Below, piece after piece: positions 5,806 to 54,619 of a DNA stretch of 64,000 bases. The stretch lies in contig NZ_LT963352.1 in the NCBI RefSeq assembly GCF_900236475.1, positions 1,798,001-1,862,000 of the forward strand, in the 5' to 3' direction. Position numbers and translations under genes: made by a program. How positions within the stretch are numbered: position 1 is the first letter of the stretch; each line of letters begins with the position of its first letter. Source of the DNA: Streptomyces chartreusis NRRL 3882 (GTDB taxonomy: Bacteria > Actinomycetota > Actinomycetes > Streptomycetales > Streptomycetaceae). The notes beneath the pieces were generated by a model. That model had not been told where the DNA came from. It searched no databases and was given only the letters and a program-made list of their open reading frames with translations.

Positions 5806-7221
5806 TCACCCGGGCGTTTGGTCCATCACCGCGGCGGGCAGGGAGATCCGCCAGGCGACGCACCCGGCCAGAGCGAGCCCGGCGACGGCCAGGAGGCTGC
5901 TGGCGAGGAACGGGTCGGCGCCGCCCAGGGCGGGAGCGAACCCGATGCCGACGTAGAGCGTGACGCCGGTGGAACCGCCCAGCTGGTCGGCGGCTCGCTG
6001 AACGCCCGAGGCGATGCCGGCGTCGTCCTCGGTCACGCCGGTCACCGCGACGTACTGCAGCCCGACGATCCCGAACCCCATTCCGGCCGCGATGAGCGTC
6101 ATGGCCGGAATCATCGCCCAACCGGTGGCCCCGAGCGCGGAGACCACAGCGATGGCTGCCATCGCCAGCACGGTGAAGCCGATCCCGGCCAGGACACAGG
6201 CCCGGGCGCCCCACCGTCCGAGCAGCCGGGGAACCAGCACCGAGGCCGCGATCAGGGACACCGCCAGGGGCAGCATCGTCAGACCGGCCTGAAGCGGGCC
6301 GGCGCCCGACCGGTCCTGGAGGTAGTAGGTGAACAGCAGGAACGAGGTGGACAGGGCCGCGCTCAGCAGGGCGGTGGCGAGGTTGGCCAGGACGCGCGGC
6401 CGGTTGCGGAAGAGCCGCAGCGGCACGAGCGGGTCCCGTGAACGGCGCTCGACCCTGACGAACAGGGCTCCGGCTGCCACCGCGCCGGCCAGCGCCGCCG
6501 GCGGCAGCCAGGGCGGCGTGCCGTCCGCCTCTCCCGCCTCGATGACGCCGAGGGTGAACAGCAGCGGAGCCGCGACCAGCAAGAACGAACCGGGAAGGTC
6601 CAGCGGTGTGGGCCCGGCGGGCCGGTCGCTCGGCACGAGCAGGGCCGCAGCAGCGAGTACCACCAGGATGAACGGCACGGACACCAGGAAGATCCAGCGC
6701 CAGCCGAGCAGTTCGGTGATGATCCCGGAGACCACGAACCCGAGGACGAGGCCGCAGCTCGCGACGGCCGCCCACACGCTCAGCGCCCGCGACCTGCGCG
6801 GCCCCTCGGGGAACATGAGCACGATCACTGCCATCGCTGCCGGGAGCGCGATCGCTTCTCCGGCGCCCTGCAGCAGCCGGGCTGTCACCAGCACGGCGAA
6901 GGACGGCGCGAGCCCGGCCAGCAAGGACGCGGCGCCGAAGACAGTTGTGCCGAGCAGGAGGATGCGGCGCCTGCCGAGCACGTCGCCCAGCCGGCCGCCG
7001 AGCATCAGCAGCCCGCCGCCGGTGATCGTGTACCCGACCACGACCCAGGTCAGGGCGTGGCCTTCGACCCCCAAGTCGGCGCCGATCGAGGGCAGGGCGA
7101 CATTGACCACGGTCACGTCGACCGCGATGAAGAACTGCAGCATGGCCATGCAGCACAGCACCAGCCACGCATGCACCGGGGACGATCCGGCCCCGCGCGA
7201 AGAGAGAAAGTCTGAAAACAC
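5806..7221 (-). CDS. MFS multidrug exporter, DHA2/EmrB-QacA type
   Basis: A 471-residue transporter with about 14 hydrophobic segments. The first cytoplasmic loop has GGRLGDVLGRRRILL (MFS motif A), helix 1 has the acidic VDVTVVNVALPSI block typical of DHA2 drug:H+ antiporters, and helix 5 carries a motif-C-like GLVLGFVVSG. A GTG start at 7221 is preferred because GGAG sits six bases upstream; an earlier in-frame GTG at 7284 has no good site. Likely exports a toxic or secondary metabolite. No TetR-type regulator is adjacent, so the inducer cannot be guessed. Confidence 0.88.
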   Translation of the reverse strand: MFSDFLSSRGAGSSPVHAWLVLCCMAMLQFFIAVDVTVVNVALPSIGADLGVEGHALTWVVVGYTITGGGLLMLGGRLGDVLGRRRILLLGTTVFGAASLLAGLAPSFAVLVTARLLQGAGEAIALPAAMAVIVLMFPEGPRRSRALSVWAAVASCGLVLGFVVSGIITELLGWRWIFLVSVPFILVVLAAAALLVPSDRPAGPTPLDLPGSFLLVAAPLLFTLGVIEAGEADGTPPWLPPAALAGAVAAGALFVRVERRSRDPLVPLRLFRNRPRVLANLATALLSAALSTSFLLFTYYLQDRSGAGPLQAGLTMLPLAVSLIAASVLVPRLLGRWGARACVLAGIGFTVLAMAAIAVVSALGATGWAMIPAMTLIAAGMGFGIVGLQYVAVTGVTEDDAGIASGVQRAADQLGGSTGVTLYVGIGFAPALGGADPFLASSLLAVAGLALAGCVAWRISLPAAVMDQTPG

Positions 7222-7532: not shown

Positions 7533-9340
7533 ATGACGGTCCTGCCTGACGACGGGCTCGAGCTGGCCGGCGATTTCCCTGACGTGCCCCATGAGCAGTG
7601 GCAGCGCCTTGTGGCGGGTGTGCTGCGCAAGTCGGGCAGGGAAGTGGAGGGCGCCGAGGCCGAGGAAGCCCTGTCCACCGCGCTGGAGGACGGGCTGCGC
7701 ACCCGGCCTCTCTACACCGCGCACGACACCGCGCCCGAGCCGGGTCTGCCCGGATTCGCACCCTACGTGCGGGGCGGCCGGGCCGAGGGGAACACGCTCG
7801 GCGGCTGGGACGTACGGCAGCGGCACACGGTGGCCGACGGCGGCGCGGTGCTCACGGATCTGGAGAACGGCGTCACCTCCCTGTGGCTGGCCGTGGGGGA
7901 AGGCGGCATTCCGCTGCCGGAGCTCGGCCGGGTCCTCGACGGCGTCCTTCTCGACCTCGCCCCGGTTGTCCTCGACGCGGGACGTGAACCCGGGCCCGCG
8001 GCACGGGAGTTGCTGCGGCTGTACGAGGAGCGCGGTGTCGCACGGGAGGCGGCACGCGGCAACCTGGGCGCGGATCCGCTGGGTCATGAGGCCCGGAGCG
8101 GGCAGCAGGGCGACGTCGCCCCGGCGGCCGAGCTCGCGCGGCTGTGTGCCGAGGGGTACCCGGGGCTGCGGGCGATTACCGTGGACGCCCTGCCGTACCA
8201 CGAGGCCGGCGGCTCGGCCGCCCAGGAGCTGGGCTGCTCGCTGGCCACGGGAGTTGCGTATCTGCGGGACCTCACCGAGGCCGGGCTGAGCGTCGAACAG
8301 GCCTGTGCGCAGCTGGAGTTCCGGTACGCGGCGACCGCCGACCAGTTCCTGACGATCGCCAAGCTGCGGGCCGCGCGCCGGCTGTGGGCGCGGGTGGCCG
8401 AGGTCTGCGGGGCGCCGCGTGCAGGGGCGCAGCTCCAGCACGTCGTGACGTCTCCGGTGATGATGACGCGCCGCGACCCGTGGGTGAACATGCTGCGCAC
8501 GACCATCGCCACGCTGGCCGCCGGTGCGGGCGGTGCCGACTCGGTCACCGTGCTGCCCTTCGACCACGCCCTCGGCCTGCCGGACGCGTTCGCCCGCCGT
8601 ATCGCCCGCAACACCTCCACGATCCTCATCGAGGAGTCGCACCTGTCCCGGGTGATCGACCCGGCGGGCGGCTCCTGGTACGTGGAGCGGCTCACCGACG
8701 AACTCGCCCACGCGGGCTGGGAGTTTCTCCGGCGGATCGAGCGGCTCGGTGGCATGGCGGCCGCCCTGCGCTCCGGGGACGTCGAGCAGGACCTCGCCGA
8801 GACCTGGCGGGCGCGCACCGCCAGGCTGGCCAAGCGGCGCGAACCCATCACCGGCGTCAGCGAGTTCCCCCACCTGGCCGAGAAGCCGGTCGTGCGCGAG
8901 AGCGCGCCCGAGCGGCCGTCCGGCGGCCTGCCGCGGGTGCGCCGCGACGAGGCCTTCGAGGCACTGCGGGCCCGCTCGGACGCGCATCTCGCCGCGACCG
9001 GCTCCCGGCCCCGGATCTTCCTCGCCGCGCTCGGCCCGGCCGCCGCCCACACCGCACGCCTCACCTTCGCGTCGAACCTGTTCCAGGCGGGCGGCATCGA
9101 GCCGGTCACCGGGGGCACGTTCGCGGAGAGCGGTGCGACGGAGGCCGTGCTGTGCTCCAGCGACGCCGTGTACGAGGAGCAGGCGGCGGCCCGGGCCGCG
9201 GAGCTCAGGGAGGCGGGCGCCTCACACGTGTTCCTCGCCGGGCGGCCCGGGGAGTACCCGGGTGTCGACGCGTACGTCTTCGCGGGCTGCGATGCCGTGG
9301 CCGTGCTCTCCGCGACCCTCGACCGCATGGGAGTGTCCTG

Positions 9341-9341
<1 letters not shown>
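7533..9341 (+). CDS. mutA: Methylmalonyl-CoA mutase small (beta) subunit
   Basis: 602 residues. Same fold family as the catalytic subunit next door, with a TIM-barrel-like part ([40 protein letters not shown]) and a degenerate cobalamin-domain-like C-terminus that lacks the DxHxxG cobalt-ligand motif, as expected for the non-catalytic subunit of the actinobacterial alpha-beta enzyme. Together with MutB it interconverts (R)-methylmalonyl-CoA and succinyl-CoA, linking propionate metabolism and extender-unit supply for polyketides to the TCA cycle. The stop codon overlaps the mutB start by one base (TGATG), indicating coupled translation. The message is probably leaderless. Confidence 0.95.
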
Positions 9342-11529
<2,188 letters not shown>

Positions 11530-47840: not shown

Positions 47841-48140
47841 TCAGCGTCGCCTTCGGCCGTGACCGGGCAGGCCAGCCGGGATCGCGTACACGCTGGAACC
47901 ACTGCTGCTGGGGGCCGACTCCGCCCGCCACCCTTGGGTTAGCGCGGGCGGCACCATGCGCAGCAGCCCTTTCACGGCGGGGCGGGGAGTGGCTGGAGTG
48001 CTTATCGGCTCCCCGGACAGCGGGCAGCGCTCCCCCTCCGGCATGCGGTGCTGGGCGAGAGTGTCCTTGTGGGTGATGCGGGCCCAGGTGCCGCAGGCGC
48101 ACTCGTAGCTGTTCGTCAACTCTCTGCCGGTCACCACCAC
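47841..48140 (-). CDS. Small Cys/His-containing protein, uncertain
   Basis: An open frame of 99 codons from GTG 48140. Residues about 12-44 read SYECACGTWARITHKDTLAQ followed by HRMPEGERCPLSGE, a plausible small zinc-binding motif (two Cys, two His, one Cys). The remaining C-terminal part is Pro/Ser/Arg-rich and unconvincing, and there is no good ribosome binding site. It may be a real small gene whose end has been lost, or a remnant. Not recognised. Confidence 0.3.
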   Translation of the reverse strand: MVVTGRELTNSYECACGTWARITHKDTLAQHRMPEGERCPLSGEPISTPATPRPAVKGLLRMVPPALTQGWRAESAPSSSGSSVYAIPAGLPGHGRRRR

Positions 48141-48191
48141 TTGCCCGGATTTCGGGCGGGAGGCTGCGACACTACAAGCTCCGCGGGCGAG

Positions 48192-48500
48192 ATGACGCTC
48201 TACGACACCTCGCGCCCCTGGCACGGTTGGGCAGAAGCGGACACCGGCGCTGTGGACGGCATCATGGTGCAACTGCCCCGCCAACTCCTGCCCGTGCCGC
48301 AGGACAAGGTCCGTCTCCTGACCGCGGTGCGGTTGTCCGGCCGAGAGGGTATGGGAGCGCTGCTGGCCGGTTTCCTCAGGCAGATGGTTGCGGATGCCAC
48401 GTCTGGCGACGATCGACCTGGTGGTAGGCGCGAGATGTCCGGTCGGCCCGGACGGTGCCCGGCGGAATGCCCGGTCGGTGAGGGCCTGTTCGACGGCCTG
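48192..48500 (+). pseudogene. AraC-type regulator fragment
   Basis: Reads MTLYDTSRPWHGWAEADTG, GIMVQLPRQLLPVP and REGMGALLAGFLRQMVADAT, the middle of the AraC-binding-like sensor domain common in Streptomyces. The frame then breaks near 48405 (PRLATIDLVVG continues in the next frame) and no C-terminal helix-turn-helix remains. The N-terminal part is also missing. Nonfunctional remnant. Confidence 0.65.
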
Positions 48501-48559
48501 CCCGTACGGCCAATGCGGCAGCGCCTGAGGCCACGTCCTCCATCCCGGCGGATCAAGCA

Positions 48560-49125
48560 GCACCGGCCTCACCGCTCGCAGACGCGGTCGACGGCGGCTT
48601 CGGCCACGAGCCGGTCTTCACGGGCGTCATCGAGGCTGATCTGCTGGGGGCGACCTGACCGGCGTCGACGAGGTCCTCGCCCCTGAGGGCGATCCCCGTG
48701 AGCCGGCCGCGTTGGAGACCGGCGGTGTCCAACAACTGGTAGTCCAGGGTGTGCAGTTCGTCGTCGTGGGCGGAGGGTTCGGCCAGGCGGCGGGTCTTCT
48801 CCCACCGGGGGCTGCCGTCGGCGAACGTCAGCGGCAGGGTAACGGCGCGGGCCGATGCCGCGGGCCCGGTCGGCGGCCAGGCGGCCGGCGCGGCCGCCCA
48901 ACAGACGCTGCACGGTGGCGGCCGGGACGGCGGCGAGCAGGCCGACGCTGTAGATGCCGTATTCGCGCAGCATCTGCGCCTGGCGCGGGCCGATGCCGTG
49001 CAGGGCCTCGACCGGCAGCGGCCGGAGCCAGTCGGGACCCTGGTCGGAGCCGACGGCGAGGACACCGCCGGGCTGGTCGAGCTGGCTGGAGGGGCGGCCG
49101 CGATGGTGTTGGAGGGGCCGATCCC
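48560..49125 (-). pseudogene. DinB-like Y-family DNA polymerase fragment
   Basis: Pieces of a DNA polymerase IV/ImpB-type protein spread over several frames: LGIGPSNTIAA, then DQPGGVLAVGSDQGPDWL and ALHGIGPRQAQMLREYGIY (helix-hairpin-helix thumb region), then TLPLTFADGSPRWEKTRRLA and GRLTGIALRGEDLVDAGQVA, then ISLDDAREDRLVAEAAVDR. The catalytic palm with its Asp residues is absent. A truncated, frameshifted remnant ending next to the small membrane protein gene. Confidence 0.7.
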
Positions 49126-49130
49126 GAGTT

Positions 49131-49439
49131 CTATGCGCCCATGCCGTCGATGATGCAGTAGGCGACGTACAGGCCGTACAGAGTGAGGAGCAGGCCGAGG
49201 AATCGTGTCCACGCGGGCAGGGTACGGCGCTGATGGGTGTTCCACATGCGCTTCAGGCGCACGACGGCGGAAACGGCACCGAGTGCGGCGATCGCTGTGA
49301 ACACCCAGAAAAGCACGGGTCGATCACTCGTCGGCGCGTTCTGCACTCCGGCGTTGCCGATGATAAGCAGGAGGTAGGGGGCGATGTACTGAGCCGGGCT
49401 GAACTCCCGAACCCTCTCAGAGCTACTGGAATCGATCAT
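49131..49439 (-). CDS. Small three-helix membrane protein, possible immunity partner
   Basis: 102 residues from ATG 49439, with GGAGG eight bases upstream, a strong start. Hydrophobic segments at about 19-34, 42-62 and 78-97, separated by short basic loops (RLKRMWNTHQRR). Not recognised as a named family. It follows the gene for the exported cationic protein on the same strand, after a 124-base gap holding a hairpin, which would allow reduced read-through. Size, topology and position are those of many bacteriocin immunity proteins, but that role is inference only. Confidence 0.7.
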   Translation of the reverse strand: MIDSSSSERVREFSPAQYIAPYLLLIIGNAGVQNAPTSDRPVLFWVFTAIAALGAVSAVVRLKRMWNTHQRRTLPAWTRFLGLLLTLYGLYVAYCIIDGMGA

Positions 49440-49476
49440 GGGATGCCTCCGAAGCGTGGTAGGTGTCGGCATGGAC

Positions 49477-49514
49477 GTGCGCCCCACGGCAGGGGGAACA
49501 ACCGTGGGGCGCAC
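49477..49514 (-). terminator. Hairpin between exported-protein and membrane-protein genes
   Basis: GTGCGCCCCACGG (49477-49489) pairs perfectly with CCGTGGGGCGCAC (49502-49514) across a 12-base loop. It could end the transcript of the exported protein or act as an attenuator that sets its ratio to the downstream membrane protein. Confidence 0.7.
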
Positions 49515-49563
49515 ATGGGTGTTACAGCCCCCGGGGAGGGGCCGCATCAGGTGGAGCGGTACA

Positions 49564-50061
49564 TCACAGGATGATGTCGATGAGCCACTCGATGGCCGTC
49601 TTGACGGAGATCGCGCCCCCCAGGGTCAGGGCCTTCTTCACCCAGCCCGGAAGGGAGTTCCACTTCTCCTTGAAGTAGCCCTTGCCCTTCTTCGCCCAGT
49701 CCGTCAGCTTCTTCTGCCAGGAGTCGGGCAGCGCCTTGAAGGCCTTCTTCAGCGCCTTCTTCTTCAGCTTGTCCAGCCAGCCCTTGGCAGCGACGTCGTC
49801 GCCGGCGTAGACGGCAGCGATCTCCGCCTGGGTGAGGCCTTCTTCTCTCAGGAGCTGCTGGCCCTCAGCGGAGTCGAGATAGCTGACGAACGCCTCATGC
49901 GAGGAGAACTCGAACTCCGGGTCGAACTCCTCCGGGGTGACGGAGGCGGCAGCGGCCGTCCGGCGCTGCTCGGTCGCCTGCGCCGCCGTGGTACCAGCGG
50001 CACCCAGGGTGAGGGCAGCAAGAGCAGCGACCGCACTCATGCGGATATGCCGACGATTCAC
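49564..50061 (-). CDS. Exported pro-protein with Lys/Trp-rich bacteriocin-like C-terminus
   Basis: 165 residues from GTG 50061 (GAAGGA upstream). Residues 1-29 are a Sec signal peptide (ending AAQA). Residues 44-90 are acidic: 13 Asp/Glu against one Arg. Residues 94-165 are the opposite: 17 Lys, six Asp/Glu (net about +11) and six Trp, in amphipathic helices (KGWLDKLKKKALKKAFKALP, DWAKKGKGYFKEKWNSLPGW, AISVKTAIEWLIDIIL). Size, composition and the KG..W..LP.W pattern recall the leaderless four-helix bacteriocins aureocin A53, epidermicin and lacticin Q, but with a signal peptide and acidic pro-region. I infer a membrane-active peptide kept neutral until cleavage. No published family is recognised. 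The frame is intact among decayed neighbours. Confidence 0.75.
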   Translation of the reverse strand: MNRRHIRMSAVAALAALTLGAAGTTAAQATEQRRTAAAASVTPEEFDPEFEFSSHEAFVSYLDSAEGQQLLREEGLTQAEIAAVYAGDDVAAKGWLDKLKKKALKKAFKALPDSWQKKLTDWAKKGKGYFKEKWNSLPGWVKKALTLGGAISVKTAIEWLIDIIL

Positions 50062-50587
50062 TATCGTGGTCCTTCGGGTAAGACGGTGCGGGCGCTGCCT
50101 CCCGGTGCACTGATGGCCTGGAAACCGTGTGCGTCGGAAATGGCGGTGCCCGCACCCCCGGGCGTCTGTGCCGGGGGCGGTGAAGAACCTAGCCCTCTTT
50201 CGATCATCAGTTCCAGATGTTGAGACGCATATGCCCTGAACCTTTCCTTGCCTCCGGACGGGCACTCAGGAGATTCTTCGCATACCGGACGGACAGATCC
50301 GGACGATCTACGGCAAGCTGCCCGGCGGAAAGAACAAACCGGACTGGCTGCTACCGCCACCCCGAAACCTCAGGTTCCGCTCAACTCACGTATATCCCAC
50401 CGAGTTACTCCCGTGGACAACAGCGTGCGGGGCCCGCGAAAACGTCACACCGGTGCTGGTGGTGGCTTCCGGAACACGGGCGGGAGCGGTCCGCTGTACC
50501 GATGTCTCGAAAGGGACCGGAGTATCCACCCCTGGGCTGAGCGGTCACTCCTGCTTCGGGCGGACGCCCCGGCACTCCGCTGTTGGG
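50062..50587. promoter_or_regulatory. Divergent control region of exported protein and CPBP protease
   Basis: 526 bases without a gene. On the minus strand TAGGTT (50191-50186) could be a -10, with TGGAAC 18 bases upstream (50215-50210), the GGAAC resembling ECF-sigma -35 sites. The implied leader of about 120 bases contains a CCCCCGG/CCGGGGG hairpin (50155-50161 with 50171-50177). Nothing decisive is seen before the CPBP gene. Confidence 0.35.
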
Positions 50588-51655
50588 ATGCTGGCGATCA
50601 TGACAACTGCATCTCCGGACCTCGCCGGCTTCGCGTATCACCGCATGGGCCGCCGCACCAGTCGGCAGCGCTGGTGGCGGCCAGTGCTCGGCAGCGTGCT
50701 GTTCCTCCCGAGCTGGCTCGTGCTCGTTCTCCTGCTGTACGCCTTCTCCTACGCCCTCGGAACAGCAGCCGGATACCCGGAACTAGCCGACGGCGGTGTG
50801 GACTTAGGCCCACTGCGCAACACAGCACTGGACCTGACGTACCTCGCGGTCGCCCTGCCCCTCATCCTGCTCGCCGTACGGTGGACCGAGCGACGACCTG
50901 CCGGCACCCTGTCCTCGGTTACCGGACGACTGCGCATCCGCTGGCTGGCATGGTGCCTGCTCGCCGCTCTCTTCCCCGTGACCCTTCTGGCGCTGAGCAC
51001 CATCTTTCTGCCGGACGACAGTTCTGCTTCCGGAACGTCCGCGGCATGGGTCGGCTGGCGATCGTTCCTCGTCTCCCTGGCCGTCCTGGCCGTCTTCGTT
51101 CCGGTACAGGCCGCAGCCGAGGAATACGTCTTCCGGGGCTGGTTGACCCAGGCAGTCGGCGCCTTCCTGCGCTCCCCGTGGCTTGCCGTACTCCCCCAAG
51201 CCGCGCTGTTCGCCACCGCCCACGGCTGGGGCACCACGTGGGGCTTCATCGACCTGCTTGTCTTCGGCCTGGTGGCGGGGTGGCTGACCATCCGCACGGG
51301 CGGCCTCGAAGCCACCATCGCCCTGCACGTCCTGAACAACCTGCTGGCCTTCGGCGTCTCCGCCGCAGTCGTCGACGGACTGTCCTCCGACGAGACCGCA
51401 GCCGACGCACCCTGGCAACTCGCCCTCGCGGACATGGCAACCGTCCTGCTGTACGCCGCGATCGTGCTGCGAGTTGCCCGTCGCCAACGCCCGCAACACC
51501 TCGCACCCCCGGTGGCCACGCCGCCCGCACCACCGGCACCGGACCCGTACCCCCAGCCGTTCGTCACGCCTCCGACCGGCAGGTCCTGCTCATACGACAC
51601 AGCTTCCGGGCGGGACCGGCCAAACTGCGCCGAGACGCCAAAGAGAGGCATCTGA
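50588..51655 (+). CDS. CPBP-family intramembrane metalloprotease (Abi/CAAX type)
   Basis: 355 residues (ATG 50588; a second ATG at 50600 is equally possible, neither with a strong Shine-Dalgarno). About seven membrane helices. The three CPBP motifs are complete: EEYVFR (178-183), FATAH (208-212) and HVLNN (247-251), so the glutamate/histidine metal site should be active. The C-terminal ~70 residues are a Pro-rich cytoplasmic tail. CPBP proteases process prenylated or membrane proteins and include bacteriocin self-immunity proteins such as PlnI. It is divergent from the exported bacteriocin-like gene, so maturation or immunity are both reasonable hypotheses. Confidence 0.85.
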   Translation: MLAIMTTASPDLAGFAYHRMGRRTSRQRWWRPVLGSVLFLPSWLVLVLLLYAFSYALGTAAGYPELADGGVDLGPLRNTALDLTYLAVALPLILLAVRWTERRPAGTLSSVTGRLRIRWLAWCLLAALFPVTLLALSTIFLPDDSSASGTSAAWVGWRSFLVSLAVLAVFVPVQAAAEEYVFRGWLTQAVGAFLRSPWLAVLPQAALFATAHGWGTTWGFIDLLVFGLVAGWLTIRTGGLEATIALHVLNNLLAFGVSAAVVDGLSSDETAADAPWQLALADMATVLLYAAIVLRVARRQRPQHLAPPVATPPAPPAPDPYPQPFVTPPTGRSCSYDTASGRDRPNCAETPKRGI

Positions 51656-51799: not shown

Positions 51800-54619
51800 T
51801 CACCGGTTGAGTTCAAACCAGACCACCTTGCCAGTGCTCAGCCGGGTCGCGCCCCAGCGGTGGGCCAGCCGATTCACCAGGTACAGGCCACGTCCGGCCT
51901 CGTCGGTGACGCGGGTCTGCTGCAGCCGAGGGAGTTGCGGCACGTCGTCGCTGACCTCGCAGCGCAGCACGTCCGTGCGCAGCAGCCGCATGGTGACCGG
52001 CCGGGAGGCGTACCGCACTGCATTAGTCACGATTTCACTGACCAGTAGTTCCACGGAGTCCGTGAGTTCCTCCATGCCCCAGCGGGTGAGCGCGCGGCGG
52101 GCGAGACGTCGGGCCCGGCTGGGGGCCGTGTCATCCGGCTCCAGGAACCAGTAGGCCACGTCGCTGGGTGCGATCCCGTCGAAGCGGGCGGCGAGCAGCG
52201 CGATGTCGTCGTCCCGGTCGCCACGGCCGAGCATGTCGAGCACCTCGTCGCACAGCGCTTCCAGTGGTGGCGGCTGGTCTGGTCCGGTGAGCTGCGCGAC
52301 CGCGGTGAGCTTCTCCCGCAGCTGCTCGATGCCGGTCCACACATCCCGCAGGCGGGACTCGACAAGGCCGTCGGTGTACAGCAGCAGGGTCGCGCCGACA
52401 GGCGCGTCTAGCTCCACCGCATCGAAGTCGACACCGCCGACCCCGATCGGGGCACCGGCGGGCACGCGCAGCACCTCGGCACGGCCGCCCAGGTGGAGCA
52501 GGACGGGTGGCGGATGGCCGGCGTTGGCGATGGTGATGCGGTGCGATACCGGGTCGTAGACGGCGTACAGGCAGGTCGCGATGTAGTCAGTGCCCAGTCG
52601 CTGGGCTTGCTCATCGAGGGCGTGCAGCACCTCGTGCGGCGGCAGGTCCAGGCCCGCGAGCGTCTGTGCAGTGGTGCGGAGTTGGCCCATAAGGGCTGCC
52701 GACGTCATGTCGTGGCCCATGACGTCACCGACGACCAGGGCAACCCGGCTGCCGGGCAACGGGATCGCGTCGTACCAGTCGCCGCCCACCCGGACCGTCT
52801 CCGCCGCAGGCAGATAACGGGAGGCCAACCGCACACCGGTGCAGCGGGGCAGGGTCTCCGGGAGCATTCTGCGCTGCAGCTCGTCAGCGATAAACGCCTC
52901 GCGCCCGTTCAACGCTGTCCTATCGATGCTCAGTGCACTGTGCGTGGCGAGCTGCGCCGCCACCAGCAGGTCGTCCTCCTGGAATGCGCGCCGCTCGGGG
53001 TTGCACAGGAACAGCGCGGTGCCGATCACCCGGCGCCGGCCGCGCAGTGGCGCGAGGATCGCGCGCTTTCCGGGTGGGACGCAGCACTCAGCGTTCTTTC
53101 CGAGCAGCTCGGGCAGGGCCGCCCGGGCTGCGGGCGTGTTGGTGAAGATTGGGCGCACGCCGCGCAGCACCTCGGCGAGCGCGCTACCGGGCCGAACCTC
53201 GCACAGCTGCGTGCCGACCACGTCCAGCTCGGTGGGCTCCAGCTGTACCAGCGGCATGAACCCCCCGTCGGCTTCGCCCTCCCCCGGCCTATGGTCGGTG
53301 CGGCTCAGCCGGAGCACCAGCGGGCCGGTGGGCCGCTCATCGCCGACGGGCAACGGGTCGCGTAGGTAGACCAGGATCGCGTCGGAGAAGGTAGGCACGG
53401 TGGCCCGGCACAGCCCCATCACAATTTCGTCCAGGTCTAGGCCCCGGGCGATGCGCCGGGTCGCGGCACCTATGTAGCGCAAACGATCAGCCGACAGGCG
53501 CGATGCATCGACAGGAAAAGTGGCGTCGGTGCTGGTCAGCTGGTTGTCCCGGGTTGTTCGGGACAACGTAGAGGGCTCTTCATCTGCCCGAGGCAGGGAC
53601 TGTTGGGTGACTAAGTGCTGAGCTTGGGCCGGCACCAACTTGATGGTGCCGCTGGCAGAATCCGAGCGCGGAGATGCGCGATACCCCATGTCCTGGGCAG
53701 CTTGCTGAACGGCATCGTGCTCCTCATCAAGCACGGCCCGCGCCTTCTCCAAGGCAAGATCGACATCGTCGAGAGCCGCGTCATCGTCAGAGATCGCTTG
53801 CAAGCCGGGCTGAGGAGCCTGGGGGGTCAGCTCCTGCGCGAAGTCGCGATCCTCATATCCTGCCCACTTGCGCAGCTCAGCGAGTTCGGCTTCCAGAAGC
53901 TGAATGCGGCGCGCAGCATGGTCGGCCACCTGCTGGGCCGTGTCTCTCTCCTGCTCTGCACGAGCCAGCTGCTGACGCAGATCGATCTGCTGCCGCTGCG
54001 CGCGGGACAGGCGTAGCTCGAGCGCTGTGTGCCCCTCCGGGTCCGTTGGCGGTAGCACCTGTAGGGCGTCAACCCGGCGTTTCAGTTCCACCGCCTTTGC
54101 CTGAGCCTGGCCGAGCATGGCGAACAGAAGCGTGGCGATCTGAAGCGCCTGCGCCCGGCTGCGCTCGCTGGCCTCGTAGGCCTGCCGGACGACCTGCAGT
54201 TCCTGATACACCTCAATGGTTCGGTCCTTAGCCGCCAGCAGGTCATGAGCGAGTGCCAGCTCTTTCGTGCCCTCCGCAAGCGGCGTCGGACTGGCCCGGG
54301 CCCTTTCCCATAAGTCTCGTGCCATCTGCAGGCGCTGCCCGGCACGGTCGACCGGTTCGTCGGGGAAACAGACGTCAGCCACCGCTTCGACCAGGTCCCA
54401 CGTCAGTGCCTCACCGGACAACAGATCACGCAGTCGGCGCACTTCGGGCACCGCCCCGGCCGTGAAGTGGTCCGGCGTAAGACGCTGGTGGAGCTGCCTC
54501 ACCGACATTGAGGCATCGTCCAGCCAGGACCGCACCTGCTCAACCAACTGATTGATCTCAGCACACGACCCTCTGGGCGGTGCCCACGGCCGGCCCGGTC
54601 GTCTCCCCTTGCCCCCCAC
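51800..54619 (-). CDS. Coiled-coil/GAF/SpoIIE phosphatase with C-terminal RsbW-like kinase domain
   Basis: 939 residues from GTG 54619. Residues 20-110 resemble a helical XRE-like or effector-sensing domain; 120-250 are long Gln/Glu/Arg coiled coil; about 385-570 a GAF domain; 590-812 a PP2C-type SpoIIE phosphatase with all metal motifs (GGDWYDA 612-618, GDVMGHD 631-637, TDGLVE 749-754, DDDIALL 803-809); 825-939 a histidine-kinase-like ATPase with N box SEIVTNAVRY and DEAGRGLYLV. Such fused phosphatase/anti-sigma proteins act in partner-switching control of sigma-B-like factors, common in Streptomyces. No anti-sigma antagonist gene is adjacent, so its partner is elsewhere. Cytosolic. Confidence 0.9.
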   Translation of the reverse strand: MGGKGRRPGRPWAPPRGSCAEINQLVEQVRSWLDDASMSVRQLHQRLTPDHFTAGAVPEVRRLRDLLSGEALTWDLVEAVADVCFPDEPVDRAGQRLQMARDLWERARASPTPLAEGTKELALAHDLLAAKDRTIEVYQELQVVRQAYEASERSRAQALQIATLLFAMLGQAQAKAVELKRRVDALQVLPPTDPEGHTALELRLSRAQRQQIDLRQQLARAEQERDTAQQVADHAARRIQLLEAELAELRKWAGYEDRDFAQELTPQAPQPGLQAISDDDAALDDVDLALEKARAVLDEEHDAVQQAAQDMGYRASPRSDSASGTIKLVPAQAQHLVTQQSLPRADEEPSTLSRTTRDNQLTSTDATFPVDASRLSADRLRYIGAATRRIARGLDLDEIVMGLCRATVPTFSDAILVYLRDPLPVGDERPTGPLVLRLSRTDHRPGEGEADGGFMPLVQLEPTELDVVGTQLCEVRPGSALAEVLRGVRPIFTNTPAARAALPELLGKNAECCVPPGKRAILAPLRGRRRVIGTALFLCNPERRAFQEDDLLVAAQLATHSALSIDRTALNGREAFIADELQRRMLPETLPRCTGVRLASRYLPAAETVRVGGDWYDAIPLPGSRVALVVGDVMGHDMTSAALMGQLRTTAQTLAGLDLPPHEVLHALDEQAQRLGTDYIATCLYAVYDPVSHRITIANAGHPPPVLLHLGGRAEVLRVPAGAPIGVGGVDFDAVELDAPVGATLLLYTDGLVESRLRDVWTGIEQLREKLTAVAQLTGPDQPPPLEALCDEVLDMLGRGDRDDDIALLAARFDGIAPSDVAYWFLEPDDTAPSRARRLARRALTRWGMEELTDSVELLVSEIVTNAVRYASRPVTMRLLRTDVLRCEVSDDVPQLPRLQQTRVTDEAGRGLYLVNRLAHRWGATRLSTGKVVWFELNR

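Follow-up and report, generated by a model that had tools for sequence, protein, structure and literature searches.

The window analysed here is a 64,000-nucleotide stretch corresponding to positions 1798001 to 1862000 of an 8.98-Mb single-contig Streptomyces genome. Three open reading frames are present and uninterrupted between 49131 and 51655 of the window, as the earlier note on this DNA had claimed. Two of them are on the minus strand: a gene for a secreted precursor of 165 aa (49564 to 50061), with a GTG start at 50061 and GAAGGACC upstream, and a gene for a small membrane protein of 102 aa with about three hydrophobic segments, a candidate immunity protein (49131 to 49439, starting at 49439). 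The third is divergent, on the plus strand (50600 to 51655), and encodes a CPBP (Rce1-like) intramembrane protease of 351 aa, whose start at 50600 is backed by the plasmid annotation of a homologue. The strands are stated because the earlier note gave none and the plus strand is also open across 49564 to 50061; translating that strand yields an unrelated antisense product, and this reading was rejected. As for the decay that had been described for the neighboring genes, the open reading frames of 47841 to 49245 had no Pfam match, but the SpoIIE phosphatase gene (51800 to 54619), next on the CPBP side, is intact.

The blastn comparisons and the junction sequences showed that a block of about 2.5 kb (49128 to 51606) is common to six Streptomyces loci, one of them on a plasmid, and that the flanks are unrelated. 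The close relatives were found on a 233-kb linear plasmid of Streptomyces coeruleorubidus (L009) and in four further genomes (L010 to L013), L012 being the same locus as L006 of genome G099; the edges were read from comparisons with L006, L009, L010, L011, and L013. In the six loci, homology with the window starts at 49128 to 49132, at the stop codon of the membrane protein gene, and stops at varying positions between 51516 and 51606, at the end of the CPBP gene, with nothing shared beyond. These sharp boundaries are what marks the cassette as a unit. The order of the genes (CPBP, divergent precursor, membrane protein) was identical in every close relative. Since exactly the same block is found in unrelated flanks, the trio moves as a unit, which answers the question raised earlier of whether the three genes travel together. 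L009 and L013 also have an upstream plasmid-like segment in common with each other, which is not found in the window. A search of viral contigs and phages gave no relatives.

The precursor can be divided into three parts. The signal peptide (residues 1 to 28; 49978 to 50061, minus strand) ends in TTAAQA and would be cleaved before TEQ (motif AQA/TEQ). It is followed by a fast-evolving acidic pro-region with a net charge of -10 (residues 29 to 93; 49783 to 49977) and by the predicted mature peptide (residues 94 to 165; 49567 to 49782), which has 72 residues, including 17 Lys and 6 Trp, and a net charge of +11. The sequence and the alignments across lineages thus supported the view that the precursor is exported and that its C-terminal part, cationic and rich in Lys and Trp, is conserved. 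When the precursor and the membrane protein were compared with Pfam, NCBIfam, and PDB sequences, only chance-level matches were obtained, and no described bacteriocin or immunity family matched either protein in these databases, in agreement with the earlier view that the system was undescribed. No account of the Streptomyces precursor family was found in the openly licensed papers searched.

According to a single-sequence AlphaFold2 model, the 72 residues form five helices (pLDDT of 90.3), and a model of a 59-aa relative also had five helices (pLDDT of 87.8). Foldseek and VIA, which have little power for helical proteins as small as these, found no PDB match for either model. A kinship with aureocin A53 and lacticin Q, to which the peptide had at first been likened, was not supported. 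The profile of that family, PF11758, gave nothing over its curated cut-off in 199 Streptomyces genomes and nothing at the loci of the precursor family, and was absent from the matches for L036 and L042 at an E value of ≤5; PDB sequences and folds gave no match either. What the predicted peptide has in common with aureocin A53 and lacticin Q, judged from composition and predicted secondary structure only, is a Lys- and Trp-rich sequence of about 50 to 70 aa with short amphipathic helices, so that the likeness is one of composition and predicted helicity. Those peptides are leaderless, whereas the precursor has a signal peptide and a pro-region. Their fold is a compact, saposin-like one of four helices; the two models, both confident, have five short helices. 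Membership in the aureocin A53-like family was therefore not supported, with no profile match over the cut-off and a product that is not leaderless.

The wider distribution of the precursor was examined with a first profile in 393 Streptomyces genomes and with a second-round profile (A7) in 199. Full-length relatives (E value of ≤4e-19) were present in about 10% of the Streptomyces genomes sampled. They have a common architecture, with a signal peptide, a variable pro-region of about 53 to 76 aa, and a cationic Trp-containing C terminus. The signal peptide and the pro-region were present in all members, the former with a basic N-terminal end, a hydrophobic core, and an AxA motif, as judged from the sequence. 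In 19 members for which the boundaries were set by hand, the mature parts had 59 to 79 aa, a net charge of +3 to +16, and 2 to 10 Trp residues. The idea of an acidic pro-region that neutralizes the charge of the peptide as a general strategy was not upheld: the net charge of the pro-region ranged from -15 to +4 in the relatives and was zero or positive in 7 of 19. Charge neutralization may apply to the clade of the window (-10 versus +11), and it is not a rule of the family. Members of the wider family were recognized mostly by signal peptide and architecture. The relationship between subgroups A8 and A9 was clear (hhalign E value of 6e-8); the mature part of the window aligned with both in matching register, but the similarity was weak (hhalign E values of about 0.02 to 0.03). 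Hence, the window's precursor is assigned to the family on the basis of its architecture, its signal peptide, and partial similarity. Outside Streptomyces, a search of 297 genomes from the class gave only one weak, partial case, G534. This genome, from another actinomycete family, has at L091/L120 a precursor with four Cys residues and a similar "ARKGWNEFSRTFESLPW" core.

In 30 of 30 family loci, a small open reading frame with two or three hydrophobic segments lay directly downstream of the precursor gene on the same strand; as background, a small membrane open reading frame was found downstream of 14 of 125 other genes. The association of the precursor with a small membrane protein thus proved constant. 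Of the 30 loci, 29 were counted by an automatic rule and one (L028) was added with an open reading frame that needs a TTG start, and they are not all independent, since five belong to clade A and three to clade B. The count was made without a GC3 filter because this filter is too strict for these lower-GC3 genes. Distances between mature parts were correlated with distances between membrane proteins (Mantel test, r = 0.54, P = 0.0005), and those between signal peptides hardly so (r = 0.16, P = 0.05). The former correlation is as expected of matched toxin-immunity pairs, with a contribution from common descent; both sets of distances also follow general divergence, the pro-region and membrane protein distances giving an r of 0.45.

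At L050 (G229:C80:250-546), a homologue of the membrane protein has no precursor in the approximately 250 bases upstream before the contig ends; it is possibly an orphan immunity gene, a reading limited by the nearby contig start. At L088 (G021:C15, 1378 to 1890, plus strand), a deletion appears to have fused a precursor pro-region to the membrane protein that comes after it. At L027 and L041, ABC transporter ATPase genes directly follow the pair.

Two noncoding elements accompany the precursor gene. About 130 bases upstream of its start were nearly invariant in the six loci. An N-terminal coding extension in this DNA was rejected, because the frame is broken in L009 and L011 by deletions of one base, and the conserved DNA is therefore not coding. 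The six-locus comparison and folding defined a structured 5' leader RNA at 50055 to 50184 (minus strand), with a core stem at 50080 to 50157 and the loop motif GGUUUCCAGGCCAU; the window leader folds into a long stem (z = -5.0). A model of this RNA matched just upstream of the precursor gene of L008, a locus of lineage C in genome G019, with a low score of 20.8 bits and an E value of 0.18 in 569 kb or 1e-4 for that stretch. In this leader (6640 to 6747, minus strand), the letters of the stem differ, and the shape and the loop are kept (z = -3.4). Within clade A alone, the variation was too small for covariation, and no double changes were seen. The 16-base motif of the leader occurs once in the genome of the window and in 0 of 98 other Streptomyces genomes; its 61 scattered matches in viral contigs were taken as chance. 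The leader RNA was seen only with the clade A cassette and lineage C. No Rfam family corresponded to it, matches to CRISPR-DR29 and microRNAs being due to chance.

The second element lies between the precursor and membrane protein genes (49474 to 49551, minus strand) and consists of two hairpins with about 94% conservation in the six loci. It resembles 6C RNA (RF01066) in its two hairpins with C-rich loops, its intergenic position, and its actinomycete host, but unlike 6C RNA it sits inside a cassette, and its score with the Rfam model, 34.9 bits, is under the gathering cut-off of 47. Both the leader RNA and the intergenic hairpins probably act in expression.

CPBP proteins act in bacteriocin self-immunity in lactic acid bacteria. 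The cassette protein matched PF02517 with an E value of 9.7e-17 (61.5 bits versus a cut-off of 22.4), and its catalytic motifs are intact (EEYVFR, FATAH, and HVLNN). It is thus similar to the CPBP/Rce1-like self-immunity proteases in its EExxxR, FxxxH, and HxxxN motifs and in adjoining a bacteriocin-like gene. In contrast to these proteases, it has a close paralogue (about 70% identical) that stands alone in the same genome, at 4.21 Mb (L121, 6520 to 7536, minus strand); this paralogue is interrupted by stop codons near its end, and no precursor or membrane protein gene lies beside it. The subfamily is therefore not dedicated to the cassette. The CPBP gene had also been counted as a component of the system, and the results were divided on this point: it travels with the other two genes in the clade A cassette, but it is not constant in the family. 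Beside the precursor and membrane protein pair it was found only in clade A and in G008 (L042/L096), where it is downstream of the pair and co-oriented; it was not found in the remaining family loci with wide flanks. CPBP as a universal part was thus rejected, and across the family it is accessory. We regard it as a candidate second immunity factor or processing aid.

A precedent for a bacteriocin released from an exported proprotein is PAMP, the protease-activated antimicrobial peptide of Propionibacterium jensenii (Faye et al. 2002, as described in PMC5756557), a proprotein of 198 aa with a 27-aa signal peptide, whose active C-terminal part (6,383 Da) is freed by extracellular proteolysis. 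In comparison by description, not by sequence, the precursor of the window is similar in coming from an actinomycete and in having a signal peptide and a proprotein with a candidate active C-terminal part. For PAMP, PMC5756557 describes neither a small membrane partner nor a CPBP cassette, whereas both proteins are encoded in the cassette of the window. The combination of signal peptide and pro-region had been presented earlier as a different strategy; this holds with respect to the leaderless peptides, and PAMP (PMC5756557) had already taken that route. The cassette also resembles Sec-dependent class II bacteriocins, with a signal peptide, a pair of small genes, a unit free of modification enzymes, and an adjacent membrane protein, and differs from them in its additional pro-region of about 53 to 76 aa, its structured leader RNA, and a Streptomyces family that has no database entry.

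These features make it likely, in our view, that the locus is a mobile bacteriocin-like cassette that encodes a Sec-exported proprotein and a small membrane immunity protein and that works like PAMP. The 165-aa product would be exported by the Sec route and its signal peptide removed. Outside the cell, the pro-region would be cut off to release a cationic, Trp-rich, helical peptide of about 72 aa, whose targets would be the membranes of Gram-positive competitors, probably from among related actinomycetes. The membrane protein encoded by the neighboring gene would protect the producer, and in cassettes of the clade A type the CPBP protein may be a further immunity (or processing) factor. The structured leader and the two-hairpin element would probably set expression and the ratio of precursor to immunity protein. 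A precursor for proteolytic release, a small membrane partner, a structured leader, and the lack of a detected killing domain would suit a secreted signal equally, so that the product could be a pheromone that the membrane protein receives or helps to export, with the CPBP protein as a regulated protease. We nevertheless consider this unlikely, because a strong sustained positive charge, several Trp residues, a length of 59 to 79 aa, and a helical fold are unusual for signals, and the cassette carries no gene for a sensor kinase or a transcription regulator.

The release of a separate peptide is suggested by the way in which the parts of the precursor have diverged. Between lineage A, that of the window, and lineage B (Streptomyces nigrescens and others; L014 to L016), the last 72 residues were 74 to 75% identical, whereas the signal peptide was 37% and the pro-region 22% identical. 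The values of dN/dS were mostly 0.1 to 0.4 for the mature peptide and 0.3 to 1.2 and more for the pro-region, the latter being higher in most pairs. The same ratio was 0.14 to 0.37 for the membrane protein and 0.15 to 0.29 for CPBP; thus, purifying selection acts on all three proteins, as had been supposed from their intact frames. A conserved C-terminal part behind a diverging pro-region is the pattern expected of a separate peptide cut from a precursor. No conserved cleavage motif was found among the family precursors. In lineage C, the style of the pro-region (SHATFVNYLDSIEGQ...) is kept in front of a different cationic C terminus and together with a different small membrane protein. The precursor might instead stay whole and serve at the cell surface, in development, or as a secreted toxin that is never cut, with the acidic part as a folded domain. 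Such a protein would fit the stretch SSHEAFVSYLDSAEGQQLLREEGLTQAE, which is well kept in clade A and visible in lineage C too, and cleavage is a step deduced from the alignments; but an unrelated pro-region before a kept mature part in lineage B is contrary to it, as are the dN values between L010 and the window, both of clade A (0.28 in the pro-region and 0.024 in the mature part), and we find it improbable.

The mobility of the cassette, family members on several Streptomyces plasmids (all annotated as "hypothetical protein"), and the constant membrane protein would also suit a toxin-antitoxin-like maintenance cassette, in which the peptide kills kin that do not carry it, the membrane protein is the antidote, and upkeep of the mobile element is what is selected, but most members are on chromosomes or long contigs, clade B is inherited together with its surroundings, and export by a signal peptide is unnecessary for postsegregational killing, which makes this very improbable.

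Our preferred reading of the window's locus, a bacteriocin-like proprotein with its immunity protein, could be extended to the family. Streptomyces has been mined for small molecules, and to our knowledge this genus has yielded few peptide bacteriocins that are unmodified. The relatives may form an undescribed, Streptomyces-wide class of proprotein bacteriocins on small mobile cassettes, in which a shared signal peptide precedes cationic helical payloads that are interchangeable and are each paired with a small membrane immunity protein of their own, and in which a private structured 5' leader outside the Rfam families controls clades A and C; we judge the chances for and against this extension to be evenly balanced. 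If it is correct, about 1 in 10 of the Streptomyces genomes sampled has a member that is hidden among hypothetical proteins, with no entry in Pfam or NCBIfam, and the family would provide new testable antimicrobial peptides together with candidate immunity genes. It would also extend the proprotein route beyond PAMP, the precedent found. With a design of only two genes and a peptide of a length that allows synthesis, the idea can be tested directly.

Other secreted proteins with membrane protein neighbors were also seen. A second Streptomyces family of secreted precursors (GMGTIVRKLIVAGLRHGG...ADAIEDVEGWSETAL...) occurs at L078, L079, and L081 to L083 (about 1350 to 2030), each followed by a protein of about 160 to 200 aa with four or five hydrophobic segments and no Pfam family. 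At L084 (1129 to 1659, minus strand), a signal-peptide protein with a helical, Cys-containing C terminus adjoins a multihelix membrane open reading frame. At L111 in G364, a second, tandem precursor gene (8961 to 9416, plus strand) directly follows the first pair of precursor and membrane protein genes.
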